From assembly GCA_951813535.1 (NCBI GenBank), contig OX638345.1, positions 3,526,608 through 3,590,607 on the forward strand: a stretch of 64,000 nucleotides of DNA. The letters are read 5' to 3'. The notes beneath the pieces were generated by a model. The model saw only the letters and a list, made by a program, of their open reading frames with translations, did no database searches and was not told the DNA's origin. A program made the position numbers and the translations under genes. Source of the DNA: an uncultured Dehalococcoidia bacterium (GTDB taxonomy: Bacteria > Chloroflexota > Dehalococcoidia > Lucifugimonadales > UBA3495). Below, in pieces: positions 4,643 through 62,960 of this stretch (positions are counted from its first letter, which is position 1; each line of letters begins with the position of its first letter).

Positions 4643-5042
4643 AATCAACCAGAGTAGACTAAACTGACAACAGTTGGCAACCCTCCCGTCATGTCGGCAG
4701 CGTCGACGTACCACGAGAGTTGCTCTACGTGGGAATCAAGCGGCGCCCGCAACGATTTGGCCTCAATCAGTACGTTGGGCTGGACTTTCCCCTCAACAAT
4801 GGCGTGAACGTCGCGCTCCAGAAACAGCGCGTAGTCTACCCATCCGACATCGCCCTGCGCGTTCCGCATGAAATGTTCAATGGAGCATTCTTTCGGGTCC
4901 GCGGTGTTCCACCCCAGGGCTCGTATGATGGGGTCGATGACGGCGTATCGGGTTTGATCCTCGCGCCACGTATTCCACGGGAAGCCCATTGGGTCCCACT
5001 CGGCAATGACGCCGCAGACGTGCTCCACGGTTAATGCCAAAT

Positions 5043-5222
5043 TCATAAAGGGTCATCCTCGTCAGCGAATGTGATTCCCGCCAGGACACCGCTTTCTGCG
5101 CCAGGAAAGATGGAGTCTATCACCGCCTTGAAATCTGGCCGGAAAGCCCGGTTGATGGGCAAAGAGTTATGCTCCGGGTCGGTGGAAACTGCGCTCGCGT
5201 ACAGGAACTCCCTCCGAGTCAT
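5043..5222 (-). CDS. Small 59-residue protein between NYN and HsdR-N genes
   Basis: Starts at an ATG four bases after the stop of the NYN gene and ends in an ATGA overlap with the restriction-like gene. This tight spacing on both sides is the main argument that it is translated. The product begins MTRREFLYAS and ends in the acidic tail FADEDDPL; there is no signal peptide, membrane segment or cysteine. No family was recognised. Position between two predicted nucleases suggests a partner or inhibitor, but this is inference. Confidence 0.55.
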   Translation of the reverse strand: MTRREFLYASAVSTDPEHNSLPINRAFRPDFKAVIDSIFPGAESGVLAGITFADEDDPL

Positions 5223-5226
5223 GAAT

Positions 5227-42894: not shown

Positions 42895-43080
42895 TTATGT
42901 CTCCCACTTGGGCCATGCCGTCCCAGGACGGCGGAGGCCAGCGCCCAGCCCGCCCGATAGTCCGGGGCAAGTCCCAGTTCACGCGGGTTCGCATCTCCCG
43001 TTCTATGGAAACGCCCGGTTGACGGACCACACACTTGCCGGCACGGTTGAGGCCAGACCCGTAATTGGTGAACACAACAG
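42895..43080 (-). pseudogene. Second ASCH-domain remnant
   Basis: The fragment AGKCVVRQPGVSIEREMRTRV resembles AGRRVVRQPGAQIERELRDRL of the ASCH remnant at 28945-29400. After a frame change it continues as an equivalent of AGAVLATA...GMAQVGDI. It lies head-to-head with the STAND gene and ends just before that gene's start. It is useful for placing the STAND start at 43136 rather than further upstream. Confidence 0.45.
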
Positions 43081-43119
43081 ATCTTCGCTCCCGAATATGC
43101 CAGGCGCATACCCGTCCGA

Positions 43120-43125
43120 TATAAA
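43120..43125 (+). promoter_or_regulatory. Candidate -10 box of the STAND gene
   Basis: TATAAA ends 10 bases before the chosen ATG, so the mRNA would have almost no leader. No Shine-Dalgarno motif precedes the ATG, which fits. The -35 region is not recognisable. Confidence 0.35.
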
Positions 43126-43135
43126 TACAAAAACC

Positions 43136-46100
43136 ATGCCTTTGCCCGGTGGAGCCAGTGATAAATCTGGCAATCGATACGAGCTTCTCTGGACTGTCGT
43201 CAACATGGCGAGGGTTTTGGGTGGAGAAGCCGCATCGATTTCTCTCGAGCCCGTCGGTGACGATGGTCAAGGGGCGGAGTTCACCGTCACAGGGCCGGCG
43301 GCGATCAAATACCACCAGGTGAAGCGCCAGCGAACCGGCCGCGGAGTTTGGTCCTTGACGGCATTGCAGTCCGAGGGGGTGCTGGGTAGCTTCTGCCAGA
43401 AATTGGACGTCGCGACCTCAGAAACCGTGTTCGTGTCTACGCATGCTGCTCATCCGCTCGACGAGCTCACTGATCGGGCTCGATCTGCGTCTTCGTGGAA
43501 AGAGTTCGAGTTCGGTTTTTTGGCTTCCGCTAAATGGTCTGCGGATTTCAATGACCTGCACCAACGTTGGGGGATGGCCAGCAAAGAAGATTCGTATGAG
43601 CGCCTGAAGAGGGTTCACGTCGAGACCATCAGCGAGAGAGCACTTCTCGAACTGGCTCACGCCAAGCTGAGCATGCTGCTAGACGGCGACCCAGCCAATG
43701 CGACGGACGTCTTGGCTCAATTCGCGCTGAACCAGATTCATCAAACATTGACTGCGGATGACATCTGGCAGCACCTTCATCAGCGGAATTTCCACCGGCA
43801 GACGTGGGCCCATGATGATCAGGTGGCCAACACGATTGCGGAGGTAAACCGGACCTACATGGCGGGCATGCAACATCGGGGCATTGGCGGAGACAGCATT
43901 CCTCGTAACGAGACAGACCAATTGTTGGGGTATTTCAAGGAGGAAGGTACACGGAAGGTCGCACTGGTCACTGGTACAGCAGGGGTAGGGAAGACATCCG
44001 TCATCGCCCAAGTTTTGGAAGATGCGGAGACCATGGAACTGCCGATGCTAACCCTACGGGTCGACCGCTTGGAACCGGCCGACCTACCTGAAGCGGTGGG
44101 CAAAAATATGGGACTACCAGCGTCCCCGGTACGAACCCTTGCGGCGGTGGCACAAGGCCAGGGATGTCTCTTGGTAATCGACCAGCTCGACGCCGTCAGC
44201 ATGGCATCTGGGCGGAACCCCCAGTTCTTCGACTGCATCATTGCAATGCTCGAGGAAGCTCGCCAACATCCCAACATGAGGGTGCTCAGCGCCTGTCGCA
44301 AGTTCGACGTTGACAACGACAACAGGCTCCGCGATCTGGTCGGTGACAACGGGATCGCCCAGGAATTTCGGGTCGAATCGTTCGACACTGAGACTGTGCG
44401 TTCCCTGTTGGCTCGTCTGGGAATGGATCCGGACCAGTTCAGCGCCAAGCAAATCGCCCTCCTCACGCTCCCATTGCATATGCACCTTTTGTCGGAGGTG
44501 GCCAGAGGCGGCGCAGTCGATACCAGCGTATTGCAGACCACCAAGGACCTGTACGACGCGTTCTGGCGCTACAAACGGCAGGCTCTCCAATCCCGAGGAG
44601 TGTCTCCGAGTCAAATGCGCGAAGTAGTCGACTTGGTGGTCAATCAGATGACCGACCGCGAGTTGCTCTTCGTTCCTGAATCCCTGCTGGATGACCACGC
44701 AGACGTTATGTCAGCGTTGGCATCGGAGAACATCTTGGTGCGCGAAGGGTCGCGGGTCTCATTTTTCCACGAAAGCTTCCTGGATTACGCCTTTGCTAGG
44801 CGGATGGAAGCTACCGGCGACGACCTGGCGACGTACATCCTGGCCCGAGACCAGAGCCTCTTTGTGCGTTCCCAAGTCAGGCAAGTGCTTTTGCACCGAC
44901 GCGATGACGATCCCGGGAGTGCTCTGCGCGACGTCGACGCCGTTCTCAACGACGGCGGCATTCGGCCGCACCTCAAGGCCATCGTGATATCGCTGTTGGG
45001 AGCCTTGGACGACCCAACCGAGGCAGAATGGCGCCTTCTGGAACCCTCGTTGGCGTCAGAGTTGTTCGATCACGTGCTGCGTTCAATTCATGGTTCCGCA
45101 AGCTGGTTTGACCTACTGGACACCATCGGTGTATTCGACCTCTGGTTGAATGGAACCGATGAGACTTTGGTCAATCGGGCGATTTGGCTGATGCGCGGCT
45201 GTATGCGCGACCGGCTGGATCGGGTGGCGCAATTGCTTGCTCCTTTCCTGAGCACGTCAGCATCGTGGGATAGACGCTTGGTATCCACGGTATTATCCGC
45301 AGACTTGGAAACGAGCCGGGAGATGTTTGACCTCTGCTTGGCGTTGGTCAACTCCGGAGCAGCTGATGATGCTCTCGTGGGCCGCAACGGCTCCTCGCGA
45401 CTCTGGCATACCGCGCACACGCTGGCTGACAATAACGCGGAGTGGGCTTGCCAACTGATCGCTGCCTGCTGCGACCGATTGTCCGCTCTGGCCTCTATCG
45501 TGGGATACGGAAATCCGTTCGAAATGAGTATCGGTCCGCACGGTAGCGACGGGCTGGCCGTGAAGCAGGCCGCAGACAGTGCACCCCGGGAGTTCGTAGA
45601 CCTGCTGCTACCCTTTGTTCTGCGCGTGCTGAATGGCAGTGTTGCCCAGGATGACGACCCACCCTGGTCTGATCCGGTCTGGCACCCGGAGCTCTACGCC
45701 AACGGACATGCCTTCAAGGATAATTTCCTCCTGGCGATGGAATCAGCCATATGCTGGCTCGCAAAGAACGATACCCACGCGTTCAGCCAGCTAGCTACGC
45801 AGTTGGGAACGCAGAACTTTCAGACAATCCATCTCCTGCTGGCGCGAGGGTACCAAGCCAATGGAGCAGTGTTCGCCGACGAAGCCACCGATTACGTTGC
45901 AGATGCACTCATCAAGTTCAGCGGACGCTTCCCTGGAAGTGCCAGATGGGCGGTCGCTCAGTTGATCCAAATTTCGACAACCCACTGCTCTGACGGAAGT
46001 TTGGCTCCGCTGGAACGGGCGATACTTGATCATTACACTCCACTGGAGATGACTCCAACGGGACGCCGGCGCTTGGGACACTCGCAGTTCGTAATGCTCA

Positions 46101-47587
46101 GTGCCGTCGATGAAACCCGACTATCGCATCCAGCCCTGCTCAGGCTCGGCGAATTGCGTCGCAAGTTTCCGGATCCGGGTGAACCCGGACCCAGCATCTT
46201 CACACTCGAGAGCGTGGAATCCCCTATCCCCGAGGCTTCCGCCCGTCAAATGAGCGATGACAATTGGTTGTCTGCGATGGAACGTCATAGCGTCGAAGAC
46301 TCGCCCAGCAGTGTTGATTTCTGGATAGGCGGCGCCGTTGAGTTGTCACACGTCCTGGAAGCTCTAACCAAAGAAAATCCCGAGCGCTTCGCGAGCTTCG
46401 TTCACCGCATGTCAGACGAGATCAATCCGGCCTATTTCGAAGCCATTTTGCGGGGAGTGACTGCTTCTGATCTCAGCATCGACCAAATCGTACGGGTCTG
46501 TATGCGATGCCATCGGCTGCCGGGCCGGCCTTTGGGGCGTTGGGTAACCAGGCCGCTGGTCCACTTTCCAGACGGCGTTTTACCCAATGAAGCATTGGAG
46601 ATGACGGCCTGGTACGCAACCCAGGATCCGGACCCTCATAAAGGTTCCACGGATTACCAGGGGGACCTGATGACCGCGGGAATTAACTGCGTCAGAGGGA
46701 CAGCTGCGGACTCCATCGCGAGGTTCATTTTCCAGGATAGTCGCTACCTCGAGTTTTTCAAACCCTTTCTGGAAACCATGGTCCACGACCCGTCACCCGC
46801 GGTCCGGACCGTGGTGGCGTACGCCCTGCTCGCTACGTTGAGATCCGACCGCGATTTCGGAGTAGCCCGATTCGTGGAACTCTGCAGTGAAGACGAGGTT
46901 CTGAGCACCCCCTTCGTAGAAGAATTCCTAAAGTACGGGGTCCAAACCCACTTCGTTGAGTTGCAACCCATTCTCTCGCGTATGTTGGCGTCCGTTGACG
47001 ATGATGTGGCGACAGCTGGGGCACGTCAATCCTGTTTGGCCTCGCTGACCATGGAGGCGGCACTCTCGTTGGCTGAGCAGTGTGCTGACGGTTCCCAACC
47101 GCTCAGATTGGGCGCCGCGGAGGTTTACGCCGCCAATCTAAAAGCCAGCGCCCTGCGTGCGGAATGCGAGGCCATGCTCGCTAAGTTGTTTGACGACCCT
47201 GAACAAAATGTCAGGGAAGCAGCAGCTTTATGCTTTCGCCGTTTCAGCGGGCGCGATTTGCTGGAATACGTCGATCTGGCATATCGTTATATCGAGAGTG
47301 CCGCGTTCACCACCCAGGTTAATCCTCTCATCATGGCGCTGGACGAGACCACCGCCGCTGTCCCTGAGTTGATCGTGTCAGCCTGCGAGCGCTACTTTGA
47401 CCTCGCCGCCGATGATATGCCCAACATGAACGTGGTCGACACTGGATCCGTGGCTAATCTGGTGGTTCGGGCTTACAGTCAGACCTCAGACCGCCAGGTT
47501 ACAACCCGATGTCTCGACCTGATCGACCGTATGCATCTGCTGGGATTATACGGCTTGGACAGGGTCATGGCGGACATCGATCGTTAG
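43136..47587 (+). CDS. Avs-like STAND NTPase with N-terminal Cap4-like nuclease domain
   Basis: 1483 residues from the ATG at 43136 (MPLPGGASDKSGNRYE, the usual start of this group). Residues 1-130 are a PD-(D/E)XK nuclease-like domain of the Cap4/DUF4297 type (GNRYELLW, GAEF, KYHQVKRQ with Lys63). A STAND/NACHT-like ATPase follows: Walker A GTAGVGKT (280-287), Walker B CLLVIDQLD (344-352), and a sensor region LSACRKFD. From about 600 to the end there are only helical repeats (HEAT/ARM-like), probably the target-sensing part. This layout is that of antiviral STAND NTPases, which detect a phage protein and then degrade DNA. It stands alone and intact near a DISARM operon. Other members of the STAND class work in signalling, so antiviral function is inferred. 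Confidence 0.8.
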   Translation: MPLPGGASDKSGNRYELLWTVVNMARVLGGEAASISLEPVGDDGQGAEFTVTGPAAIKYHQVKRQRTGRGVWSLTALQSEGVLGSFCQKLDVATSETVFVSTHAAHPLDELTDRARSASSWKEFEFGFLASAKWSADFNDLHQRWGMASKEDSYERLKRVHVETISERALLELAHAKLSMLLDGDPANATDVLAQFALNQIHQTLTADDIWQHLHQRNFHRQTWAHDDQVANTIAEVNRTYMAGMQHRGIGGDSIPRNETDQLLGYFKEEGTRKVALVTGTAGVGKTSVIAQVLEDAETMELPMLTLRVDRLEPADLPEAVGKNMGLPASPVRTLAAVAQGQGCLLVIDQLDAVSMASGRNPQFFDCIIAMLEEARQHPNMRVLSACRKFDVDNDNRLRDLVGDNGIAQEFRVESFDTETVRSLLARLGMDPDQFSAKQIALLTLPLHMHLLSEVARGGAVDTSVLQTTKDLYDAFWRYKRQALQSRGVSPSQMREVVDLVVNQMTDRELLFVPESLLDDHADVMSALASENILVREGSRVSFFHESFLDYAFARRMEATGDDLATYILARDQSLFVRSQVRQVLLHRRDDDPGSALRDVDAVLNDGGIRPHLKAIVISLLGALDDPTEAEWRLLEPSLASELFDHVLRSIHGSASWFDLLDTIGVFDLWLNGTDETLVNRAIWLMRGCMRDRLDRVAQLLAPFLSTSASWDRRLVSTVLSADLETSREMFDLCLALVNSGAADDALVGRNGSSRLWHTAHTLADNNAEWACQLIAACCDRLSALASIVGYGNPFEMSIGPHGSDGLAVKQAADSAPREFVDLLLPFVLRVLNGSVAQDDDPPWSDPVWHPELYANGHAFKDNFLLAMESAICWLAKNDTHAFSQLATQLGTQNFQTIHLLLARGYQANGAVFADEATDYVADALIKFSGRFPGSARWAVAQLIQISTTHCSDGSLAPLERAILDHYTPLEMTPTGRRRLGHSQFVMLSAVDETRLSHPALLRLGELRRKFPDPGEPGPSIFTLESVESPIPEASARQMSDDNWLSAMERHSVEDSPSSVDFWIGGAVELSHVLEALTKENPERFASFVHRMSDEINPAYFEAILRGVTASDLSIDQIVRVCMRCHRLPGRPLGRWVTRPLVHFPDGVLPNEALEMTAWYATQDPDPHKGSTDYQGDLMTAGINCVRGTAADSIARFIFQDSRYLEFFKPFLETMVHDPSPAVRTVVAYALLATLRSDRDFGVARFVELCSEDEVLSTPFVEEFLKYGVQTHFVELQPILSRMLASVDDDVATAGARQSCLASLTMEAALSLAEQCADGSQPLRLGAAEVYAANLKASALRAECEAMLAKLFDDPEQNVREAAALCFRRFSGRDLLEYVDLAYRYIESAAFTTQVNPLIMALDETTAAVPELIVSACERYFDLAADDMPNMNVVDTGSVANLVVRAYSQTSDRQVTTRCLDLIDRMHLLGLYGLDRVMADIDR

Positions 47588-47649: not shown

Positions 47650-47853
47650 TCAGCCATTGGCGTTGATGACGACGATACTGGTTCTGGCGCCGGGCTTCAC
47701 CTCGGCGATTACGCCGGCCGCCACGGCGGCCCTGATGATGTGATGGCGGCAGTAGTCCTGGCCGCCGATCCGGTAGAGTGTCTTGACGTAGACCGTGTGG
47801 GGAGCGCGGACGGGCGGCTCCAGTTCCGCGCCGCAGGCAACGCAGCTGGGCAT
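47650..47853 (-). CDS. Small zinc-knuckle protein (67 residues)
   Basis: The ATG at 47853 has GGAGG eight bases upstream. The product starts MPSCVACGAELEPPVR and includes YRIGGQDYCRHHIIRAAVAAGVI; CxxC plus CRHH form a likely zinc site. It ends with a short strand (TSIVVINANG). No family name is known to me. A decayed paralogue lies at 33106-33340. It converges with the STAND gene. Confidence 0.65.
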   Translation of the reverse strand: MPSCVACGAELEPPVRAPHTVYVKTLYRIGGQDYCRHHIIRAAVAAGVIAEVKPGARTSIVVINANG

Positions 47854-47954
47854 GGTTATCACCTCCGGGAATCTGGCTGATTGCCGGCATTTTAGTTACG
47901 AACTCCCAGGATCCGTTTTGCTTGCGGCGCCCGCCGCCGCGCAGGGTGTGCAGT

Positions 47955-48050
47955 GGTATCGATTGTGATGCCATGGACTCCAGTGCATTCGATACCTATG
48001 CATTCCATTGGACTGGTATGGAACCCATTGGAATGCATACCATTGGAATG
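47955..48050. repeat. Dense nested short repeats upstream of the recombinase
   Basis: Within about 95 bases there are a perfect 8-bp inverted repeat GGTATCGA/TCGATACC (47955-47962, 47989-47996), GGTATG/CATACC (48015-48020, 48036-48041), a 12-bp imperfect inverted repeat (48000-48011 and 48025-48036) and a direct repeat ATTGGAATG (48027-48035, 48042-48050). The composition is AT-richer than its surroundings. It may hold arm-type binding sites for the recombinase that follows. Confidence 0.45.
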
Positions 48051-48222
48051 GACACCTGTGGTTTCGTCGCCGGCGTCGCCGGTGCGGCCCGGAACGCGCT
48101 CAGGCGGCAGGACCGGATGCCTGCGGCGGTTCGGTCGTCCCGGGACCGACCTCAGGCCCGCGGTGGTCAGGCAAACGACGGTGAAGACGCCCTCTTGCGC
48201 CCGTCTCGCGCACGCCCGTTCG

Positions 48223-48250
48223 TTGCGCGATAATCACCATTATCGCGCAT
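48223..48250. promoter_or_regulatory. dif-like palindrome upstream of the tyrosine recombinase
   Basis: Arms TGCGCGATAA and TTATCGCGCA are perfect inverted repeats separated by six bases (TCACCA), 50 bp before the recombinase ATG. Ten- to eleven-base arms around a six-base core ending ATAA/TTAT is the layout of Xer/dif and XerC/D-type exchange sites. It could be the recombination core used by this enzyme, or an operator. Only one copy was seen. Confidence 0.5.
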
Positions 48251-48298: not shown

Positions 48299-49150
48299 AT
48301 GGCCACCGCCGCCGACCTGCAGATCGTCCCCCGCCAGCCCACGTCCCTGCCGGCCCTGCGCGCTGCCGACCAGGGCGTGGCCTCCGCCCTGGAGTCCGTT
48401 CTCTCCGACAACACCCAGCGCGTTTACGCCGCCCAGTGGCGCATCTTCACCAACTGGTGCGGCGAGATGGGCCTCCGCCCCCTGCCGGCCGATCCCCTCA
48501 CCGTGGCCCGTTACCTGGCTGCCCGCGCCGGTTCCGGCGCCAGCATCGCAACGCTGCGGCTGGCCACGTCGGCCATTTCAAAAGCTCATGAGTGGGCCAA
48601 GCTGGAGTCCCCCTGCCGGGACCCGGGCGTGCGCGCCTCCCTGAAGGGATGGGGAAGACTTCTCTCGAAACCCCAGCGGCAAGCCGGGGCCCTCACCGCC
48701 GATGTGCTCGCCGTGATCCGCCTCACCGCCGTCCAGCCCCGCCGGCGGGGCCGGGGGATGGAGACGCCGGAACAGGCTGCAGAAAGGGGGAGGTTCGACG
48801 TGGCCCTGGTGGCGGTATTGTCCGATGCGGGGCTCAGGCGCAGCGAAGCGGCCGTCCTCACCTGGGGAGACGTGCAGCGCTGGGACGACGGAAGCGGCCG
48901 TATCACCGTGGTCCGCTCCAAGACCGACGCCCTGGCCCAGGGCGCGGTGGTGGCCATCACCCCCGCCGCCATGAAAGCTTTGGATGCCATCCGGCCGGAG
49001 GGCGCTGTTGGCGAGGTGAAGGTGTTCGGGCTGTCGGAGTCGCAGATCGCCCGGCGGGTGAAGGTAATCGCCAAGTCCGCCGGTCTTGCCGACTGGGAGA
49101 GTTTCAGCGGGCACAGCGGGCGGGTGGGCCTGGCCCGGGGAGAGCGAGAA
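48299..49150 (+). pseudogene. Tyrosine recombinase lacking its C-terminus
   Basis: An N-terminal core-binding SAM-like domain (SDNTQRVYAAQWRIFTNWCGEMG) and catalytic domain start (DAGLRRSEAAVLTWGDV, Arg I) are intact, as is FSGHSGRVGLAR with the His-x-x-Arg pair. The sequence then enters an IS5-type transposase remnant on the opposite strand. The last helix with the nucleophilic Tyr is missing; the frame runs on to a stop at 49273 with foreign residues. The enzyme must be inactive. Its family resembles integrases of small mobile elements. A dif-like palindrome lies just upstream. Confidence 0.8.
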
Positions 49151-49603
49151 CGTTATGCCGGTTCGAGCATGTGCGGCAACCATATGAATCTTGGTGGTCC
49201 AGCCGCCCCGGGACTTTCCGATAGACTGGGGGCCGTTTTTTTAGCGCACCCGTGCCGTCGGGGTGGACCTTGACGATGGTGCTGTCCATCGCTACCACTT
49301 CGAGTTTGATGCGCACGATCTGTTCCCGCTGGAGGTGTGCAAACACCCGGTCGAGCACCCCATTCTTCGACCAGCGATTCATCCGTGTGTAGACGGTATG
49401 CCAGTTGCCAAATCGGGGCGGCAACCCCCGCCACTTGCAGCCCTGCTCGGCGACATACGGGATCGCGTTGAGCACTTGCAAGTTCGACAGTTTGACGTTG
49501 CCGCGCTGAACGGGCAGGACCGATGCGATGCGTTCGTACTGAGCTTCCGTAATCTCCATGCGGGCATGACAACATTTCAGCCTTGGTAGTATGAACAGGC
49601 CCT
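49130..49603 (-). pseudogene. IS5-family transposase, N-terminal half
   Basis: From the ATG at 49559: MEITEAQYERIASVLP, LQVLNAIPYVAEQGCKWRGLPPRFGNWHTVYTRMNRWS, and the first DDE Asp in VAMDSTIVKVHPDG. At ALKK a run of seven A bases is followed by a frame change; in another frame the sequence continues KNGPQSIGKSRGGWTTKIHMVAA. The C-terminal half is gone where it meets the integrase at about 49140. The terminal inverted repeat, ending GTATGAACAGGCCC, is at 49587-49603. Some IS5 members use programmed frameshifting at such A runs, so this may not be a lesion; the truncation is. Confidence 0.75.
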
Positions 49604-49655: not shown

Positions 49656-50456
49656 CTATTTGGTTAGCGGCAGTCTCTCAAGGTACCCATCCCGGATCAG
49701 CGAATCGAAATGCTCCTCGATCTGACTGGCAATCTCCGGGGTTCTCACGAGCAGTCCCAATTCCATGTTTCGCTCCTGGGCTGCCTCGGTAAAATTTGCG
49801 GAAGTAACCAAAGCTCGATTACCATCGATTACGACGCATTTGCTGTGTAAGGCACTACGGCCGGCACCGTGGTCGGTCAAGGAGCGTGGATCGAAATATA
49901 CCCGGGGCAAGCGTTGACCTGGCCACTCATGCTCAACGAAATTTCGAGCGAATCGGCCGGCGATTTGGCGGTCAATCGAGGTGCTGCCTGGGACCCGTCG
50001 AACGTCCAAACAGAGGGTCACCTCCAATCCATCCTCGGAATCAAGGCGCTCCGCCAACGTTCGAAACACTGAACGCCCCTGATGAACGGCGAACCCCACA
50101 GCCAGAATCCGCGATTCGGCTTCGGTGAACAACTGCCGCATCACCACGCCGGTCTCACGCGCAGTCGACGTCGCATCGGGCCCGCTGACAACGACATCGA
50201 TGATCTTAGACAAGTCGAGATCGGACGCTTTGCCAGCAGCAAATGCCCTCAGTATCACGGCAATTTGTGCGGGCCTTTCGTTCTTGCTGTCCAGATCACT
50301 CAGGAACGACAACAAGGGACTGACGTGGACTCGGGGTACGTGGCCCTGCAAACCCAGCGCGGTGAACGGGGGAGCAACCAGTCCTGTTTCGACTAGGTTG
50401 GCCAACCTGGTCAAGCTCGCCACGTCTAGGGCGTCCAGCACGTGGAATGCGATCAT
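49656..50456 (-). CDS. drmC: DISARM protein DrmC, phospholipase D-like nuclease
   Basis: 266 residues. The single HKD motif is LHSKCVVIDGNRALVTSANF near residue 205, followed by NMELGLLV, the standard end of the PLD fold. DrmC is the last gene of DISARM operons and is a PLD-superfamily nuclease reported to be dispensable in some tests. Its start overlaps the drmB stop (ATGA). The region to the IS5 remnant downstream (49604-49655) shows no clear terminator. Confidence 0.9.
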   Translation of the reverse strand: MIAFHVLDALDVASLTRLANLVETGLVAPPFTALGLQGHVPRVHVSPLLSFLSDLDSKNERPAQIAVILRAFAAGKASDLDLSKIIDVVVSGPDATSTARETGVVMRQLFTEAESRILAVGFAVHQGRSVFRTLAERLDSEDGLEVTLCLDVRRVPGSTSIDRQIAGRFARNFVEHEWPGQRLPRVYFDPRSLTDHGAGRSALHSKCVVIDGNRALVTSANFTEAAQERNMELGLLVRTPEIASQIEEHFDSLIRDGYLERLPLTK

Positions 50457-52261
50457 GGATCCAAGGGGGTTGTGTCAAAAAACGCTGCACCCGGAACGCT
50501 TACTGTCGGGACCACCAGAGCACGGTCTAAGAAATCATTACGCTGTTCGCAACTGGTCTCAGAGATCAATAGGCAACCGTGACAAGCCGCGCCATGCAGT
50601 GGCCGTCCTTCGAAGGAAGCTTCCGGGATGTGTTCCGCGCACACTGGATCATTGGAACACAGGAGATTGTCCAAACAAGCTCGAGCTAGGTGCTCGGGAA
50701 AACGGCGGCCAGCTTCTACCAATCCCCCCAGCGTTCCCTCCGAATCGGAAGAACCGGTGTAAATGAGGACTCCATAACTGTCGACCCCCGCATAAACCCT
50801 CTCACGCAGCGAACTCGCTGGATATCCGCAATCTAGCGATATGGTTGTCATCAACATGTGGGCCAACGAATGCAACATTACGTATGGCAGTCTTGGGAAG
50901 TTGTCTTCTGTACGCCGACGCTCCCTAGCCCATAACCGATATGCAGAATCAAGAGCTTGCCCCCGGATCTGCACCTCGGGGCGTGCTAACCAATCTTCGA
51001 TGGCCTGGGTTTTGAATGACGCAAATATTCCCTCACCGCGATTTTCGATGGTTGGCAACCAGGTGATGGTTTCAGCCAACGACGCACGTGCGACATCGAG
51101 GTCGAGTTCACCGTCAATTCCAGGGTTTATCGATTCCAGCCGCGTGAAACCTAGCAAAGACGCCACTTCTCGCAACCGGTGGACCAGCATCAGATGTTGC
51201 ACTGAGTCTAGAAGTGGGTTATCACCTTGTTCCCAGGCGTTGCGGGGTAGGGTCTCGCCATAGAACTTCGATCCCGACAGGTCTAGGCCAATTTGAGGGT
51301 CCCCTTTGTTTAGAATTTGGAACTCGGCGACTTTGACCGGAACCTCGTCGTCCTCGCCACCTCCTTTCTGGCGGAAATATTCTGCGATTATTTCCGCATC
51401 GTCGATTCCATCGAACGGCGCGTTCAACTCGGCCGACATTCGGAAATTGGCCAACGCTCCCACGTCATCCAAGGTTTTTAACCGGTCGTAGTTGGCCGTC
51501 ACTTTGGACGCCAGTCCAGCGTCGAATTCGGGCAGCGAGATAACATTCATCATTTGTGGGAAGTAGGCGTTACTGGCGGTGCGTACCAGCAGCCGATACG
51601 GTTCGTCGCATTCCTCCGACGCGTACTGACCGATCCACGGGCGTCTGCCCATGCACTGCCCGAGCGCTCCCATTCCGGGGCGGAAGGCGTCCAGCAGCGA
51701 CCTTTGCTCGCCGCAATCGCACACTCCGTAGCAGTCCGAGATGTCACCGCTGGTGCCCCGTTCCTCTAGCCATAGCGGACGCTCGCAAGGATTACCGCCG
51801 CGGTGAACGAACACGCGCCAGTTCAAGTCGTCGATGTGGCCGCGGCGGCAGCCGCACACGAAGCGAACGGGAACCACCGGTTGACGCTTCCGATCTTCGT
51901 CCACGAAACGCAATCTGTCCAAGTGAGCCCACCTAACCAATCTCCGGCGTCGCCATTGCTGGTTTTGCCCGGACGGTTGGGCATCTTTGACTATGAACCA
52001 GGTAGGGAAGATACGAGCTCCAACCGGGGCCCGTTGATCTGTGCCCTCTTCATGCTGAGGCGGCGTGTACAACTCCAGGGACGGAACATCCAGGAGCCGT
52101 TGCAGCTTGGAAATAAGCCTGGGCTCGTCAATTTTCTCTCGCCGAAGATGAGCCCAATCCTCCAGACTGGACACTATGACCGAGTAGTCCGGCAAGTCGA
52201 TCATCGCGCCAGGGCCGTAGGTAGTAATCAGCTGGCTTTGTCTTATGAAATTATCAGGCAT
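50453..52261 (-). CDS. drmB: DISARM protein DrmB (DUF1998)
   Basis: 602 residues. It starts IRQSQLITTYGPGAMIDLPDYSVIV, the invariant N-terminus of DrmB. Several cysteine clusters point to bound zinc: FVCGCRRGHID, CYGVCDCGEQ, and at the C-terminus CLDNLLCSNDPVCAEH, CHGCLLISETSCEQRNDFLDR. The DUF1998 region at 430-590 (LPYVMLHSLAHMLMTTIS and IYTGSSDSEGTLGG) is typical. DrmB forms a complex with DrmA that scans incoming DNA and in known systems is blocked by a trigger loop until it meets a 5' overhang. Starts eight bases after the drmA stop. Confidence 0.93.
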   Translation of the reverse strand: MPDNFIRQSQLITTYGPGAMIDLPDYSVIVSSLEDWAHLRREKIDEPRLISKLQRLLDVPSLELYTPPQHEEGTDQRAPVGARIFPTWFIVKDAQPSGQNQQWRRRRLVRWAHLDRLRFVDEDRKRQPVVPVRFVCGCRRGHIDDLNWRVFVHRGGNPCERPLWLEERGTSGDISDCYGVCDCGEQRSLLDAFRPGMGALGQCMGRRPWIGQYASEECDEPYRLLVRTASNAYFPQMMNVISLPEFDAGLASKVTANYDRLKTLDDVGALANFRMSAELNAPFDGIDDAEIIAEYFRQKGGGEDDEVPVKVAEFQILNKGDPQIGLDLSGSKFYGETLPRNAWEQGDNPLLDSVQHLMLVHRLREVASLLGFTRLESINPGIDGELDLDVARASLAETITWLPTIENRGEGIFASFKTQAIEDWLARPEVQIRGQALDSAYRLWARERRRTEDNFPRLPYVMLHSLAHMLMTTISLDCGYPASSLRERVYAGVDSYGVLIYTGSSDSEGTLGGLVEAGRRFPEHLARACLDNLLCSNDPVCAEHIPEASFEGRPLHGAACHGCLLISETSCEQRNDFLDRALVVPTVSVPGAAFFDTTPLDP

Positions 52262-52269
52262 AATATTCG

Positions 52270-55200
52270 CTAGTTGAGATCTTGCCCTTCCGGCGTTTTG
52301 ATTGCGAGAAGCACATTTGGCTCAACGTCCCGCAAGGACCGGGGCGCGCGGAAGCGCAGTTGGGTGGGGGTCAGCGTGTTACGATCTGGATCTATCATTT
52401 CACGCAACAACGGTGTCGATACGCCGGCATCACGGCGGGCGTAACCGAAGGCGATACCGTCCTGTCCAGCCTCGTGGGCCAAATGCGCCCAGTCGTCGAT
52501 AAGACTCTGTACTCGGAGCCGAACCAGCTGCCCTAAACCGGGCGGCGCGAACTCGGCGTGAGTCCCTGCTCTATCGCTGATAGCGTCGGCTATCTGCTTG
52601 GTTTCCGAACCGTGACTCTCCACCTGCCTCGCCGACAGGGTCGGCGTGAGATCTTCTATGCCCAAGCGAACCAGCGCCACGGTGATCGCCGGCAAAGCCC
52701 GATCCATCGCACCTGAGGAAAACGGCGTGACGCTGGTCGCCTCCACCCCACGGTAGAATGACTCGTGGTAATTGGCGTAGCGTTCGTAGTGGGAACGGTC
52801 CCGCGGCTTGTGGATGTTCAGCAGAGTTACCACTAGCCCCGGTCTTTGAGGATGCCGTCCGACCCGGCTGGTGGCCTGGATGTACTCCGATGTCGATTTG
52901 GGTTGTCCGGAAACCAGCATAAGGCCCAGGCGCGTGATGTCCAGCCCCACTGAGATCATGTTGGTAGCCAAGGCCACATCAACCTTTTCCTTGGCGGTAA
53001 AGTCGAGGGCGAGCTTTCGCTTGGCATCCGCCACTTTGGCGGTATCCACTCGTGAGGTCAATTCCACCGGCTCGAAGGCGATGTGGCGGTCGTCGAACAA
53101 ACCGTCGGCTTCCCCGACCCGCTTGCGCTCGGAATAGGTGAGGAGCCTGGAGTTGATTTCGTCCTCCACGATGCGGCGGGCGCTGCCCAGTTCGCGCAGG
53201 GCGTTGAAATAGACCACCGCGGTCATGTAAGGGTCGGCCGGATTTACGGTGCCGGATCCACCGGCAGCGTTCCAAGCGGCCTGGGCCCCGCTCATCAGGG
53301 TAGTCATGGAGCGCAGGAAAATGACTTTGGGTCCCCGGCCCTGCGCCGCCACGCCCACGTAGGCGCGTGCCGAGTCCGGTTCGTCTTCTATTTGTTTGGC
53401 AAAAAAGGAGTCCCGACGGTCCACGCCCGGGGCCGGAAAGATCACAGCCGTATGACGGTTGAACAGCGCGCGGATCTGTTTGGAGGCCAATCTCACCGTC
53501 GCGGTGGATGCGATCACCTTGGGGCGCACTACTTGCCCGTCGACCTGGCGCCGGCAGAGATGGTCAATGGCAGTTTCATAAATGCCGGCCATGGAGCCCA
53601 GTGGCCCGGAGATGAGGTGCAGCTCATCCTGGATGATCAGGTCTGGAGGCCTCGGGTTGGACGGATCTCCCCCGCGGAAGAACCTGGCCGTCTCGCCGCT
53701 CCACGGGAGAGCCGCAAACTTGTCGGCGGTGGCGATCATGAACGCCGGCAGGCGCCGGTAAATGGGTTCGTCCACAGCCACGATGGGCAGGTGCCGCTTG
53801 CGCCTGGAAAAGTCGCAGTGGCGCGACGCACAGCTGACCCACAGATCGGTGGGTTCGTTCGTGTTCGGCTCCAACTGGAATGAGTTGCCGCTGAACCGCT
53901 CGCCGCACCAGGGACACTCTTCCAACGGCAATGGCTGTGGCCGGGAAGTGTCCTGCGCGTAACGCAACGTCCTGACCCGAGCCGAGTTGCCGCTGCGGTC
54001 TCCCTGGCGACCCATGTAGTTGGGGGTGGCAGCACGACCAACCCAAAGGCCAATTTCGAAGGACCATTCCCCCAAGGCAACCGGATCTTGCTCCCGTTCC
54101 AGCTCGAGGGCGCAGATCATGGCGGCGGCACGGCCCAGCTGATCCAGCGTCAGCAGGCGCAGGGTGTAGCGCATCAAAACCGATAGGCCCCGGTAAACCG
54201 GATCAGGGTTGCGCAGACGCCGCAACACCAGCGTGAAAGCCGCCAACCCCAGGTAGGCTTCCGTTTTACCGCCGCCGGTGGGGAAGAACAGCAGGTCGAC
54301 GATCTCCCGCTCGAAATGCGTCGGCTCGGCGATGCTCCGCAGGTTCATCAGGATGTAGGCCAACTGGAATGGGCGCCATTCCGGCGGATCGACCTCATCA
54401 GGGCCCACGTTATTCCCCAACGCACGACGACGTCGGCCAGCGGCCGCCATGGCCCGGTTGGCGACCCGGAAGGCTTCCAGCACGTCGGGATCGGATAGGA
54501 GATCGATGCCGGCCTGAATGCGATTGGCTACGCCCGTGGCCCGGCTGACCAGCAGGCTCGCTACTTCCTGGCGGCGGCCGGTGAGTCCCTCAGAAAACGT
54601 GCCCTGCCCGTCGATCCAGGTTCGATATAGCTGTACCAGAGGGTCGAGGAGCAGTTTGGCAGCAGCGCCGTCGGCGACCGCGCCCAGCGTCTCCATGCGG
54701 AACTCAACCTGGTCTATCGGCGCCGACACCGTCCGATCCACCGACGTCCGGGGCATCCACTCGGTGCTGACCCGGCAGCATTCGCCGTCGTCCACGTGAG
54801 GGGAGGTGGACACGTTGTGGCCCACCGCGTACTCCACCACGTCGCCGAAGTGCAGGTCGGCCAGTCGTTCGTCCCAATCCTCGCTGTCCAGGCCGCGCAG
54901 GTTGGCCCGGGCGATGAGGGGCTGGTCGGCTTCCACCGTTATCTCCACCTGGAAAGCGTAGGCTTTGTCCTGCAGGTTGTCGTCGGCAGGTTCTCGCCGG
55001 TTGACCACGAATACGGACACCGCCCTACCTGCCTGGGAGCCATACTGGGCTGGGACGTTCGTTGCCCTCGCTAGGCAGACCACTTGCATTCCGCCGCTGC
55101 CTTGGATGGGATAACGCGCCGGTTTGGTCGAATCCAGGATGGATAGGTCGATGGAAACCGAACCGTGCATCGGGGTGCGCCGCCAAGGTCCGAAGCGGAG

Positions 55201-55668
55201 TCCGGTGTTGTCGTCGCCGATTGCCTCGGCGACTTCGAGACTTGCACCAGCGTCGACCGCTTCGTGATCCGCCTCGGCGCTCCCTTCGGGCGCGTAGTCG
55301 CCCCAGGCCAACGACACATCCAGCGTCTTGGTTTCCTGGGTGACCCGGATGCTCATGCCGATGGACGACGGGAAGAAGTTCCGCTTGGCGCTGCCCCGGT
55401 CCGGCGTGCCCCCGTCGTCGCTGCCGTGGAAAGGACCGTCGGGCTGGTCGAATTCTTCTTCGGCGTCCTGCGCACGCTGGGACTCCGGCGCATTCGACGG
55501 CACCAGGAACCCGGTCAGATACCAACGGGACGGGGCGTGGGGCAGCAGTTCGTAGGCCAGCTCCGCATCGTCGGGCCGGGGGCCGATGAGGTCCAGGCGC
55601 AGCGCGTGGGTGAGGTAGTCCCGCACCGAGGCGCTATCAGTTATCTGTCCTGCCGAGATTTGGGCCAT
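52270..55668 (-). CDS. drmA: DISARM helicase DrmA
   Basis: 1132 residues. An N-terminal domain of about 440 residues precedes the SF2 helicase core: Walker A FFPTGGGKTEAY (461-472), DELH box (681-684, DLIIQDELHL), motif III VIASTATVR, and C-lobe ATNMISVGLDITRLGLMLV with QATSRVGR. A zinc-finger-like insertion (CPWCGE...SCASRHC, 585-618) sits between Walker A and DELH. DrmA with DrmB is the core of all DISARM classes; it translocates on foreign DNA. The start is five bases from the drmMI stop. Confidence 0.95.
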   Translation of the reverse strand: MAQISAGQITDSASVRDYLTHALRLDLIGPRPDDAELAYELLPHAPSRWYLTGFLVPSNAPESQRAQDAEEEFDQPDGPFHGSDDGGTPDRGSAKRNFFPSSIGMSIRVTQETKTLDVSLAWGDYAPEGSAEADHEAVDAGASLEVAEAIGDDNTGLRFGPWRRTPMHGSVSIDLSILDSTKPARYPIQGSGGMQVVCLARATNVPAQYGSQAGRAVSVFVVNRREPADDNLQDKAYAFQVEITVEADQPLIARANLRGLDSEDWDERLADLHFGDVVEYAVGHNVSTSPHVDDGECCRVSTEWMPRTSVDRTVSAPIDQVEFRMETLGAVADGAAAKLLLDPLVQLYRTWIDGQGTFSEGLTGRRQEVASLLVSRATGVANRIQAGIDLLSDPDVLEAFRVANRAMAAAGRRRRALGNNVGPDEVDPPEWRPFQLAYILMNLRSIAEPTHFEREIVDLLFFPTGGGKTEAYLGLAAFTLVLRRLRNPDPVYRGLSVLMRYTLRLLTLDQLGRAAAMICALELEREQDPVALGEWSFEIGLWVGRAATPNYMGRQGDRSGNSARVRTLRYAQDTSRPQPLPLEECPWCGERFSGNSFQLEPNTNEPTDLWVSCASRHCDFSRRKRHLPIVAVDEPIYRRLPAFMIATADKFAALPWSGETARFFRGGDPSNPRPPDLIIQDELHLISGPLGSMAGIYETAIDHLCRRQVDGQVVRPKVIASTATVRLASKQIRALFNRHTAVIFPAPGVDRRDSFFAKQIEDEPDSARAYVGVAAQGRGPKVIFLRSMTTLMSGAQAAWNAAGGSGTVNPADPYMTAVVYFNALRELGSARRIVEDEINSRLLTYSERKRVGEADGLFDDRHIAFEPVELTSRVDTAKVADAKRKLALDFTAKEKVDVALATNMISVGLDITRLGLMLVSGQPKSTSEYIQATSRVGRHPQRPGLVVTLLNIHKPRDRSHYERYANYHESFYRGVEATSVTPFSSGAMDRALPAITVALVRLGIEDLTPTLSARQVESHGSETKQIADAISDRAGTHAEFAPPGLGQLVRLRVQSLIDDWAHLAHEAGQDGIAFGYARRDAGVSTPLLREMIDPDRNTLTPTQLRFRAPRSLRDVEPNVLLAIKTPEGQDLN

Positions 55669-55672
55669 TGGG

Positions 55673-58600
55673 TTAGACCTTCAACGTTTCTTGGATTAAT
55701 TTGGCGATGCGTTCTCTCTCGGCGCGTTCCTGCTCGGCCCGTTCACCGTTCAGGGACAGCAGGCGGGCCAGCACCATATCCCGCACTTCGTCGGGCCAAC
55801 GGTAGCGCCAAGGCTTTTTCCTTCTGCGATATTCTTCCTCGTCGATCTCGAAATCCAGCAGGAATTCGCAATCGGTGGCGATGTCCGTCCAGCCGTAGGC
55901 GTCGAGGACCGCCCGGTCCATTTTCTCACGAAGTTCCCGCAGGCGCAGTATGTCAGGGTCGCGTTCATCTGGATCGTGGAACCGGTTGTAGGTCTTGGTC
56001 ATCCCCTCGTCATTGCGGATCATCAGCGCGGCCCGGAAGGTGTAGTACTCCTTTCCCGCCGCCTCCAGGGTTGCATCCTTGTCCCAATCTACCGGGAACG
56101 GGAATGTCTCGAAGCAATCAATGGTGGCATACATGAACCGATCTTCGAGGGACGATCCGAAGAACCGCGCCCAAACCTCATGCACCGTGGATTGCAACAT
56201 AGCGAAATTAGAGTCGCTAGAATCGGCGACGATCACCAATCGTTCGGAATAAACCATGCCGGGTGGCAGAAAAGTGAAGGCTATATATTGGGAAACCCGG
56301 GAGATGGCCAGCACGCGATCAAACCCAGATGTCGCCTCGGTTAACCCTGAGCTCTTTTCCGCGTATTGCCACCAATTATCCTGCCGAGTCTTACGGTTTT
56401 GACGATCGCGCTCGGGTTTGACTTTATCTTCAACAATTGATATCAAATCCGGCCAACGGGCCCGGCAATATTCTTCGCCCTTAGCCCCGAAGTTTATGAC
56501 GAACCGATGGTGCGCGTGATCAGGCCTGTTGTTCAACTCCTCCCCGCCGATGTAAGGGAATATCACCTCCCGGTTCTGAGGGTCCTTTTCGATTAGGGCG
56601 TCCATAACCGAGATGGACGTTGCCACGCCCTTGCTGTCCGTGTCGTCGAAGGTGAACCCCATGCCCAGCACGATGCTGCCTTGGAAGCTCTTCCCATCGT
56701 TGGCGTGCAGCCTCGTTGGGTCGTCGTGGGCGCCGGCGTGGAAGAGGAAGGCCGTGATGGTATCCACTGGTTTGTCATCCAGCACCCGGGGGGCCGTCAA
56801 TTCGGCCTTGGTGAAGTGGACTACGCTGACCACCACTGCCGCTTCGCCGGGCCACTGGATGCGACGTTGGACACGGTAGATTGAGCCGCCGTTCTTGCAG
56901 ATCCAGCGCAGACCGGTGGATCGGGTGTCGCCCTGGCCGATGGTGTTGGTGGCAATCAGCCCCACCGTGCCGCCGTCCCGGATCAGATCAAAACCCCGTC
57001 GGAAAAAGTGCGCCACCAGATCAGCGTTGCCGTGGCTCTGCGGGTGGATCTCTTTCAGCCAGTCCGGGTAACCGTCGACGTTGGACGCGGCGACGGAGTT
57101 CTTACCGGCAAAGGGCGGGTTGCCCACGATGGCGTCGAAGCCGGAGTTCTCCCGCTCAAACACCTCTGGGAACTCGATACTCCAGTGGAAGGGGGCCAGG
57201 CCCAACGATTCCCCTTCCTCGAGCAACGTCTCCACCGCGTCGCCGTTGCCCACGATGGACAGGACGTATTCACGCCGTTTGAGTTCCCGGGCTTTGTTCT
57301 TGGCTTGTTTGAAGAACGCCGTCAGTACCAGATCGCCGGTGCGCCGCACGTTGCACAACTCCCGCTGGGAGCTGTCCAGGAGGGTCAGCAATTCCTGCTC
57401 GGTGGCATCGTCACTGTGTTCCCGGATCTCCTCACGAAGCTCCCTCACTCTCTTCATCCGTTGGTTGATCTGAATGGCCTCCACGCCGGGCTGGAATATG
57501 TCCGCGTCGGCCTTCCAGTGAAAGGCCTCGATTTGCCGGCGGGTCAGGCCCACCAGTGAGTCGCCGTGGCGCAGGGTGTGGTCCACGAAGGTGAACTCGT
57601 GGTCCCGGGCCAGGGTGGATAGCCACAACGATAGCCTGGCGAGGTCGATGGCCATGGGATTCTTGTCCACCCCGTAGAGGCATCGCTGGGTCACCAGGCG
57701 GCGGGCGTGGAGGAAGAGGTCTTCGTCAGCAGGTAGGTCGGTGGGAGCGCCGTGGTAGCTCCAGGATTCCACCAACCTCTCGGCAAGCTGCCGGCTTGTC
57801 TCCACCAGAAACGCGCCCGAGCCGGTGGCAGGATCCAGGATTTTGAGGTCGAGGATCTGCTCAGGCAGAGGATTGGGTCCCAATCGCTCGAATATGGGCC
57901 GCAGCGCCTCAGTGACGATGGGCTCGGTGAGTGAGCGGGGTGTGTAGTGGCTGCCGGAGCGTCGGCGTTCGTCGGTGGGTTGCAGCACCGGCGTTCCCGC
58001 CGGCAGGATGGTGGGGGTGGCGTCCCGGTCCACGTTGCGGTCCAGGGCGACCACGATGTCCTCGGCGAAGGCCGAGTCGCGCAGGTCGTTGGCAGCAGCG
58101 CCGGTGAGCCTACGGTCGGTGGCGACCTGTAGCTCCCGGGCCCGCCGGCTGCCATCCTCCGCCAGCATGACGTCCAGGTCGATGACGACGGCCGCGCCGG
58201 TTCGTTTCGGTGAGCGCACCGCGATGGAACGGCCCGTGGTCAACTCCACGCGGAACCCCATGATGGCTTCGTACACCGACCCGATCTGCTCCACGTCCAG
58301 GGTTCGGTATGACAGCCGCTCGCCGTCCAACACAATCAGGTTTTGCAGTACGTTCCAAACGGTGGAATCGGGCACCAGGGGGATATCGACCTGGCCGTCC
58401 TCGGTCCGGCCCTCCAGGAAGGGGAACCGCTCCGGATCGAACAGGCGACCCTTGCGGGCGACGAAGGTCAGGTCATCGTGTCCGCCGCCGCCGTGGATCA
58501 AGCGGAACAGGGACAGCAGTTGGGCCCAAGCGCCAAAGCGCTGGTCCATGGTGTCGGGCCAGGCCGCGGCGTCATCACGAAGTTTGGCGAACAAACCGCT

Positions 58601-59542
58601 CAGCGAGTAATGCTGATGGTATACCGGGTGGTCGGACATCAACCCCCGGTCCTCGGCATACAGGATGAAGACCATCCGCATTAGGGCGGTGATAAGTCCG
58701 CTGTAGAGTTCCTGGGGTTGTTCGCGGGCCAGGTCGGCTAACTTTCCATCTCCGCCCCGCGCGTCGGCGGCCACGAAACCTTGCAGGAGCTGGTAGAGGG
58801 CGGCCAGGACCTGCTGGGACAGGCGGGTGGAAACCTCTGCCTGAGCCTCACGGCTCTTTCTGAGCAGGGTGGGGAGGGCACGATCTGCCGGGCCGCTGAA
58901 CAGAGCGTACTCGGACAGCAGCATCTGAAAGGCTGCCAGGATGGGGCGCCCAGCCGGCAGCGCCATGTCGGAAAAGTCGAAGGAGATGTGGCCCGATGAT
59001 TCCCCGGGTGGCGCATAGATCAGCCGGATACACCGATCATTGCAAAGCAGGCCGATGGGGATGCCGGTTTCTCGCAACAGGCGCTCAAACCGGCTGTGCA
59101 GCGAGGCGTTCCACCCATCCTCGTCGGGCGGTTTGTCCAGATCGCTTCCATCATCTTCAACCCGTATCAACATCATCCAGGGCGGGCCCGACGTTACCTG
59201 CGACGGCACGGCCCAGGTCGCGGACAAAACCACCTGCAGCTCGGGTAACGCTCTTTCCAGCTCATCCCGATGCTCATCGGCGTCGACCAGGTCACCAGTC
59301 TCCCACCCCAACCAATCCAGGAAGATGCGTTTCAGATCGGGAGCGCGATGGCGCATGGTGGCGCCGCTGCCGTTGACCTCCAAGAGCGCGGTGAACTCTC
59401 GCTGCCGGGGAACAATATTGCGATCCGGCACGACCTGGGCCCCCACCATAACAGTGGGGGCCACGACCAAGCCCACCGGCTGGACGAACCCCAGCCACTC
59501 CTGGTGGGCGAATATGATGCTCTGTCTTGCTCGATCCGGCAT
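55673..59542 (-). CDS. drmMI: DISARM class 1 adenine methyltransferase DrmMI
   Basis: 1289 residues. A long N-terminal region resembles the PglX/Eco57I-type start. The N6-adenine methyltransferase domain has motif I LDPATGSGAF (569-578) and motif IV GNPPF (807-811); a target-recognition-like region fills 830-1150. The C-terminal tail (ERAEQERAERERIAKL) is a short coiled coil. DrmMI modifies host DNA so the system spares it and marks class 1 DISARM. It begins three bases after the drmD stop. Size is normal for this family. Confidence 0.93.
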   Translation of the reverse strand: MPDRARQSIIFAHQEWLGFVQPVGLVVAPTVMVGAQVVPDRNIVPRQREFTALLEVNGSGATMRHRAPDLKRIFLDWLGWETGDLVDADEHRDELERALPELQVVLSATWAVPSQVTSGPPWMMLIRVEDDGSDLDKPPDEDGWNASLHSRFERLLRETGIPIGLLCNDRCIRLIYAPPGESSGHISFDFSDMALPAGRPILAAFQMLLSEYALFSGPADRALPTLLRKSREAQAEVSTRLSQQVLAALYQLLQGFVAADARGGDGKLADLAREQPQELYSGLITALMRMVFILYAEDRGLMSDHPVYHQHYSLSGLFAKLRDDAAAWPDTMDQRFGAWAQLLSLFRLIHGGGGHDDLTFVARKGRLFDPERFPFLEGRTEDGQVDIPLVPDSTVWNVLQNLIVLDGERLSYRTLDVEQIGSVYEAIMGFRVELTTGRSIAVRSPKRTGAAVVIDLDVMLAEDGSRRARELQVATDRRLTGAAANDLRDSAFAEDIVVALDRNVDRDATPTILPAGTPVLQPTDERRRSGSHYTPRSLTEPIVTEALRPIFERLGPNPLPEQILDLKILDPATGSGAFLVETSRQLAERLVESWSYHGAPTDLPADEDLFLHARRLVTQRCLYGVDKNPMAIDLARLSLWLSTLARDHEFTFVDHTLRHGDSLVGLTRRQIEAFHWKADADIFQPGVEAIQINQRMKRVRELREEIREHSDDATEQELLTLLDSSQRELCNVRRTGDLVLTAFFKQAKNKARELKRREYVLSIVGNGDAVETLLEEGESLGLAPFHWSIEFPEVFERENSGFDAIVGNPPFAGKNSVAASNVDGYPDWLKEIHPQSHGNADLVAHFFRRGFDLIRDGGTVGLIATNTIGQGDTRSTGLRWICKNGGSIYRVQRRIQWPGEAAVVVSVVHFTKAELTAPRVLDDKPVDTITAFLFHAGAHDDPTRLHANDGKSFQGSIVLGMGFTFDDTDSKGVATSISVMDALIEKDPQNREVIFPYIGGEELNNRPDHAHHRFVINFGAKGEEYCRARWPDLISIVEDKVKPERDRQNRKTRQDNWWQYAEKSSGLTEATSGFDRVLAISRVSQYIAFTFLPPGMVYSERLVIVADSSDSNFAMLQSTVHEVWARFFGSSLEDRFMYATIDCFETFPFPVDWDKDATLEAAGKEYYTFRAALMIRNDEGMTKTYNRFHDPDERDPDILRLRELREKMDRAVLDAYGWTDIATDCEFLLDFEIDEEEYRRRKKPWRYRWPDEVRDMVLARLLSLNGERAEQERAERERIAKLIQETLKV

Positions 59543-59545
59543 GAG

Positions 59546-62860: not shown

Positions 62861-62960
62861 TCGGTGGTAACGATATGTGCGTGCAAGGAGTTCAATAGGC
62901 GCCCGGACCGAATATTTGATACGGCAGGGCAATCACCAGGGTGCGATGTTCTGTTGGCCG

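Follow-up and report, generated by a model that had tools for sequence, protein, structure and literature searches.

The question raised by this locus is what a short palindrome standing directly before a tyrosine recombinase gene is for. It lies in a window of 64,000 nucleotides, the whole stretch of DNA that we analysed, which corresponds to positions 3526608-3590607 of the one-contig 4.38-Mb genome of an uncultured Dehalococcoidia bacterium (labelled G000). An earlier note had read the palindrome as a dif-like site of Xer type, possibly the attachment core of a small element related to Xer-using mobile elements.

The palindrome, its module and its recombinase

The 26-bp palindrome, TGCGCGATAA-TCACCA-TTATCGCGCA, is located at 48224-48249 on the plus strand, with arms at 48224-48233 and 48240-48249 around a core at 48234-48239 (TCACCA). 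It is the sole match in the window at up to 3 mismatches and was found 0 times in 100 shuffles; the palindrome is real, and chance is ruled out as its source. The site reported in the earlier note was therefore genuine, its 28-bp span (48223-48250) adding one unpaired base per side, and the distance of about 50 bp to a tyrosine recombinase was also given correctly, as the ATG at 48299 is 49 bp downstream of the site. The pattern ATAA-N6-(C/T)TAT is one that we take to match loxP.

Upstream of the site and on the same strand are a conserved 22-bp block, TGGTCAGGCAAACGACGGTGAA (48164..48185), and an array of ATTCC/TTGGAATG inverted repeats (47983..48053), some 170-240 bp away from the site and also seen in relatives that retain this side. 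Farther out on the minus strand is a gene for a 70-aa CxxC-motif protein (47650..47862), which is zinc-ribbon-like by eye, has no Pfam or NCBIfam match and is encoded divergently from the recombinase in most of the copies that retain their left side.

The ORF of the Cre-like tyrosine recombinase (48299..49273, plus strand) is homologous to its relatives only up to 49138, from where it continues in insertion sequence, being interrupted by the ORF of an IS4/5-type transposase (DUF4096; 49104..49559, minus strand). Because the homology gives way to transposase sequence at this point, the predicted protein lacks the C-terminal part with Trp and Tyr; the window recombinase is dead as judged from its reading frame, and the window copy is a decayed member of the module family. 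In the close family in G000, only the copy at 997 kb is full length without stops, and a relative with 49% identity is present at 3785 kb within a longer open frame. Domain models assign the intact copy P0001 (321 aa; L015:3167-4132) to Phage_integrase and Phage_int_SAM_1, and all 17 PDB matches listed are Cre or its derivative Tre; the best whole-sequence E value is 3.2e-07, with query residues 34-221 and 266-311 covered and single stretches weak alone. The similarity to Cre covers both domains, which marks a Cre-type recombinase, and a lox-like inverted repeat is present near the gene. Catalytic residues of Cre-type enzymes are R, K, HxxR, W and Y, and the catalytic motifs in the intact copies are GLRRSE, RSKTD, GHSGR, GRW and GRYT. 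Against Xer models, the intact copy scores far below the cut-offs; as the PDB matches listed consist of Cre and Tre only, the recombinase lends no support to an Xer relation of the site. A fold prediction gave a mean pLDDT of 56, too poor for a structure search.

Several unusual relatives were encountered. An open 329-aa paralogue (L124:6855-7841, on G001:C54), about 51% identical, has its catalytic R, K and H motifs replaced and is possibly a dead recombinase retained as a DNA-binding protein; two repeats of about 70 bp with imperfect palindromes are found upstream of it. Recombinase remnants in two genomes (L019:3274-3388 and L050:1505-1630) have a seemingly common internal deletion that ends at recombinase nucleotide 837. 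Viral contigs gave no close recombinase relative, and a distant one was found in 2 of 50,697 phage records. Exact 18-bp arms with N6 cores are present in 22 viral contigs (L151-L172), many of them flanked on one side by outer AATTCCACTAC-like sequence, and the stretches fetched from these contigs gave no convincing recombinase relative (best tblastn E 0.26). Because of this lack and the frequent outer AATTCCACTAC-like sequence, we treated the viral arm matches as unrelated, and a virus origin was rejected for want of a close viral recombinase relative.

Recurrence of the site and variation of its core

The genome holds further copies of the site, as the earlier note had proposed to look for: exact arms occur at three places in G000 (927507, 997091 and 3574832, the last being the window site) with the cores ATGCTC, TTACAG and TCACCA, respectively, and a fourth copy with one arm change is present at 3406 kb. 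A backwards-pattern control for the exact arms gave 0 matches in G000. All four sites shortly precede a relative of the same recombinase. When 60 related genomes were searched, G000 included, the exact shorter site pattern was found in 4 (G000, G001, G002 and G009), and these are the same 4 that have the recombinase at 86% identity or more; 6 other genomes of the 60 have weaker or partial matches only. In a wider sample of 393 genomes from the class, 5 (G000 among them) matched at E <= 1e-15, the four besides G000 with 32-43% identity.

If one changed arm or a 5-bp core is admitted, the four genomes contain 13 full sites (4 in G000, 6 in G001, 2 in G002 and 1 in G009). The right arm TTATCGCGC is identical in all 13, and the left arm is GCGCGATAA in 11 and GCGCGACAA in the remaining 2. 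A recombinase gene, in some cases truncated or with stops, directly follows 9 of the 13 (927, 997, 3406 and 3574 kb of G000; C54, C58 and C61 of G001; C56 of G002; C60 of G009). Three are followed by a nucleotidyltransferase gene (G001 C5, G001 C15 and G002 C112), past which the recombinase is the next gene at G001 C5 and C15 and the contig stops at G002 C112; one (G001:C24, 3433) has a truncated leader only. According to MAG labels, the named loci of close relatives (n=11) belong to SAR202 (7), Chloroflexi (2), Dehalococcoidia (1) and Alphaproteobacteria (1). The SAR202 MAG bin87 stems from a study of the sponge Aplysina aerophoba (PMC5649159).

More distant relatives of the recombinase (<60% identity) are present in 906 plasmid records, from which 20, hand-chosen from listings, were sampled (28-38% identity). 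We scored the motif CGATAA-N6-(C/T)TATCG, at 10 or more of 12, within 200 bp before the start, which was more informative than generic palindrome searches. With this motif, which was defined after the first six plasmids (record L144 being searched from the match and not from the annotated start), the design (C/T)GATAA-N6 was found before the gene in 11 of the 20 relatives and in 29 of 2100 background stretches of the same records (Fisher 4e-15); the other 9 relatives have no such site. The distance from site to start codon is 63-64 bp in 8 of the 11 and 43, 91 and 119 bp in the others. The earlier note would have been contradicted by absence of the site upstream of homologous recombinases, and the 13 full sites of four genomes, together with these 11 of 20 plasmids, speak for its presence. 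Since the design recurs in plasmid relatives, the arrangement is a plasmid-type Cre/lox-like module, and varied cores are a wider feature of it. Six sites of Methylobacterium-group plasmids have 5 different cores (CACCAT twice, TGCCGC, TAGGGC, TTGAGA and TGGCAG), five recombinases of this group being 77-90% identical in pairwise comparison, and the cores differ between two plasmids from a single M. indicum strain.

On the chromosomes, the cores vary too, 13 full sites having 13 different cores: TCACCA, TTACAG, ATGCTC, TTAGGC, TCAGAG, TCAGGG, TTACCT, TTACGG, TCACTC, TTGCA (5 bp), TCTGGG, TTGCAT and TTAGCT. In 9 copies (36 pairs), copies with the 5-bp core or without enough recombinase being omitted, the mean pairwise identity at core positions 1-6 is 1.00, 0.44, 0.78, 0.44, 0.22 and 0.31. 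The fourfold sites of the 9 copies have an identity of 0.69 as compared with 0.32 for core positions 4-6, a contrast weakened by the fact that fourfold sites in a GC-rich genome may saturate at a higher identity. Positions 4-6, which were picked after looking, are below random triples of fourfold columns (P 0.001), and the test over all six positions is weak (P 0.06, 9 copies).

Half-sites and the explanations of the site

Three half-sites bear on what happens at the core. Left half-sites without a right arm are present at G000:980135 (GCGCGATAA-TTAGGC, then other sequence) and at G001:C15:28440 (GCGCGATAA-TTGGGC, then other sequence), and a right half-site without a left arm at G001:C24:1387 (other sequence, then TCACTC-TTATCGCGC); in all three, the similarity to the module ends at or inside the 6-bp core. 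The core and its edges are where a tyrosine recombinase would join DNA, and half-sites breaking there therefore support strand exchange. Two of the 3 have a core that recurs in a full site within their own genome (TTAGGC at 3406 kb of G000 and TCACTC at G001:C58), which fits exchange but may be due to chance, given the bias of core positions 1-3. Toxin genes, PemK/MazF-like and PIN-domain, are found near the two left half-sites. Motif searches for a matching partner end of the 3 half-sites (2 left, 1 right) found none, and the flanks of the G000 and G001:C15 half-sites led to no clean empty site; the toxin-antitoxin flank of the former is present in two relatives, with similarity beginning 25-26 bp past the core, and the flank of the latter gave weak matches only. 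Of the weaker half-site candidates (up to 2-3 mismatches; in the longer list as numerous as in the backwards control), five were inspected and none counted: G001:C57:3546 was rejected because the conserved upstream block is absent, and G000:1396457, G000:1732697, G013:C149:38304 and G013:C24:31448 because, by eye, no module sequence extends beyond the motif.

Left-side distances between copies do not correlate with recombinase distances (r -0.18, Mantel P 0.61; 28 pairs, 8 copies), and the within-side controls are weak as well (r 0.56, P 0.12 between recombinase halves; r 0.17, P 0.30 between left halves). By this comparison, the left and right sides of the module appear not to have a single shared history. 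The mosaic is no proof of exchange at the core, because of these weak controls and because breakpoints occur also elsewhere.

On the basis of these findings, we consider that the palindrome probably serves as lox-like crossover site for the Cre-type recombinase whose gene follows it. Two recombinase monomers would bind the two arms, and after pairing of two such sites, the strands would be cleaved at the borders of the 6-bp core and swapped, in the manner of Cre/loxP. Because efficient exchange would require equal cores, a site should recombine mainly with an identical copy (a sister copy, a dimer or a circular form) and little with copies having other cores; rare exchange with poor partners would give rise to half-sites breaking at the core. 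The module, composed of the small zinc-ribbon-like gene, the repeat array, the site and the recombinase, is of the plasmid type; members of this genus have it on the chromosome, in several copies that are mosaic and often decayed. As the window recombinase is dead, the window site is a relic, unless the intact 997-kb copy acts on it in trans.

A circular integrating element of Tn916 type would explain some of the same observations. The site would then be its attP junction, with the recombinase at the left end, the zinc-ribbon-like gene and the repeat array at the right end, and cargo in between. On this view, full sites would mark joints of tandem elements and half-sites their outer ends, and the core would be a carried-over coupling sequence. 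The breaks of half-sites at the core and the near saturation of core positions 4-6 agree with this. Similarity between copies ends no more than about 15 bp from the recombinase stop codon (11 right ends) and, on the other side, close to where the small gene ends in copies having that gene, as if variable cargo lay between, although shuffling of genes in islands likewise makes similarity end at gene ends, and two pairs are exceptions on the left, the window having further upstream genes in common with L124 and with L121. Further points speak against it: there are 13 full sites against 3 half-sites, the window copy has no outer ends in G000, and a pair of ends with one core bracketing a segment was not found. 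We regard such an element as unlikely. The earlier idea of an attachment core of a small element lacks support on similar grounds, as there is one site per recombinase and no pair of element ends, with none of the 3 half-sites matching.

The arms could alternatively be an operator, at which the recombinase or another dimeric protein binds and regulates the recombinase gene without strand exchange. The near-constant distance to the start codon points in this direction, as does the existence of the open, catalytically altered paralogue at G001:C54:6855-7841. By eye, a possible promoter is seen at 48206..48234 (plus strand), where the left arm overlaps a -10-like GATAAT placed 17 bp after a -35-like TCGCGC; the -35-like box is TTGCGC in 7 of 13 copies (3 of 6 consensus letters), and the -10-like letters are GATAAT in 10 of 13, GATAAA in 1 and GACAAT in 2. 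However, a consensus promoter scan found no promoter at the site, the Methylobacterium plasmids have, by eye, a promoter-like sequence between site and gene, and an operator predicts neither half-sites breaking at the core nor a 6-bp centre with Cre/Xer spacing, so that a purely regulatory role is in our judgement very unlikely. The most improbable explanation is an RNA hairpin acting as attenuator or terminator, its stem conserved and its loop unconstrained: the loop does vary and a terminator-like scan matches the L015 copy (1 found, 0.4 expected), but the scan misses the window copy, a long T run is lacking, the stem letters are kept as sequence with 0 compensatory changes among 13 SAR202-type sites, and the two arm changes (GACAA) weaken or break pairing.

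Defence genes nearby and known recombination systems

The crossover site proposed here stands between genes of defence type. Upstream in the window is a gene for a large STAND-type ATPase with HEAT repeats, PDC-M54A-like (42908..47587, plus strand), a homologue of which is also found upstream of the site in L121. Downstream on the minus strand is a class 1 DISARM system of five genes (49656..62932): DrmC (49656-50456), DrmB (50453-52261), DrmA (52270-55668), DrmMI (55673-59542) and DrmD (59546-62932). Taking the nearest ORFs of 300 aa or more around the 13 sites gave 21 proteins (5 of 26 sides had none), 9 of which have PADLOC matches at E <= 1e-15: the window twice, L015, L016 and L122 downstream, L122 and L120 upstream, and both sides of L027. 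Among 20 random ORFs of G000, 1 had such a match (Fisher P 0.006), a comparison in which two control regions overlap, all controls come from G000, and G001:C58 and C61 have a common upstream region. Some control ORFs may not be genes, because only 11 of the 20 have a Pfam match, and against those 11 the enrichment has a P of 0.06. Defence genes are frequent near the sites, the enrichment is weak, and a link to the module is suggestive.

Individual loci show further arrangements. In L016 (3696-10119), an Avs2 gene lies between a recombinase and the orphan 3' end of a further recombinase copy. Two G001 sites (L122:1-2944 and L120:2000-4400) are preceded by CRISPR-like repeats and a Cmr6-like gene, these two loci having the upstream region in common and different cores. 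In L027, genes of the candidate defence family PDC-S26 flank the module on opposite strands (126-1529 and 4022-5509).

A more far-reaching idea is a chromosomal Cre/lox-like family in which the 6-bp core acts as a private barcode, with arms common to all copies and one enzyme type; neighbouring genes, defence genes included, would be exchanged or excised between equal cores and the rest of the genome left unscrambled, as by an integron-like device. We hold this to be quite unlikely. In the SAR202-type genomes and Methylobacterium plasmids, Cre-type recombinases can be matched with candidate sites whose arms are conserved and whose cores vary freely. Such a set is useful for asking how the core decides recombination partners and for new orthogonal recombinase tools, and it suggests a link between site-specific recombination and gene turnover beside defence systems. 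Among the literature matches listed, none names such a module in SAR202, in alphaproteobacterial plasmid multimer resolution or in defence islands.

Among known systems, XerCD/dif has XerC and XerD acting on a single dif in each chromosome, and its sites, like those of Xer-using mobile elements, share with the present one the 6-bp core and the ATAA/TTAT inner edges. Here, unlike in these systems, the arms are symmetric, one dedicated recombinase nearest to Cre is present, and copies follow the recombinase; G000 has four full copies, each by a recombinase of this family, which does not agree with a single dif. A search for the host dif as RCATAA-N6-TTATGTNAANT with up to 2 mismatches, a consensus that may not suit the phylum, gave 0 matches in G000 (backwards control 3), and two relatives searched gave 2-mismatch matches only. 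From the Xer-type reading, we thus keep a site of tyrosine-recombinase type with a 6-bp exchange core that goes with a recombinase, and give up its tie to host XerCD/dif; it looks more like a lox-like site with a dedicated recombinase than like a dif site of XerCD. The plasmid multimer-resolution sites cer and psi, which use host XerCD, similarly combine a core site with a conserved region of about 200 bp on one side, the difference being the own recombinase of the present module. Conjugative transposons of Tn916 type have a variable 6-bp sequence at the exchange point, as here, where in contrast both arms flank the core beside the recombinase and paired element ends were not found.

The closest likeness is to Cre/loxP, Dre/rox, Nigri/nox and Panto/pox, which have a single Cre-like recombinase and inverted repeats around a short spacer in an intergenic site near the gene. 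Cre-type systems in which a lox-like site accompanies the gene were already known, and nox and pox were identified by a similar search logic, the design looked for being an intergenic site of 34 bp near the gene with 13-bp repeats and an 8-bp spacer (PMC4957104). Compared with the 13-bp/8-bp lox design, the present arms are symmetric over 10 bp on either side of a 6-bp centre, which corresponds to an 8-bp spacer, with asymmetric positions farther out. Unlike those systems, the present one has symmetric arms of only about 10 bp, is chromosomal and multicopy, with differing cores in its 13 full copies, and has a conserved repeat array on one side and often defence genes nearby. Judged on these features, it appears as a variant of the Cre-type site and recombinase that stands out by its spread over chromosomes and its varied cores, in many cases close to defence genes.
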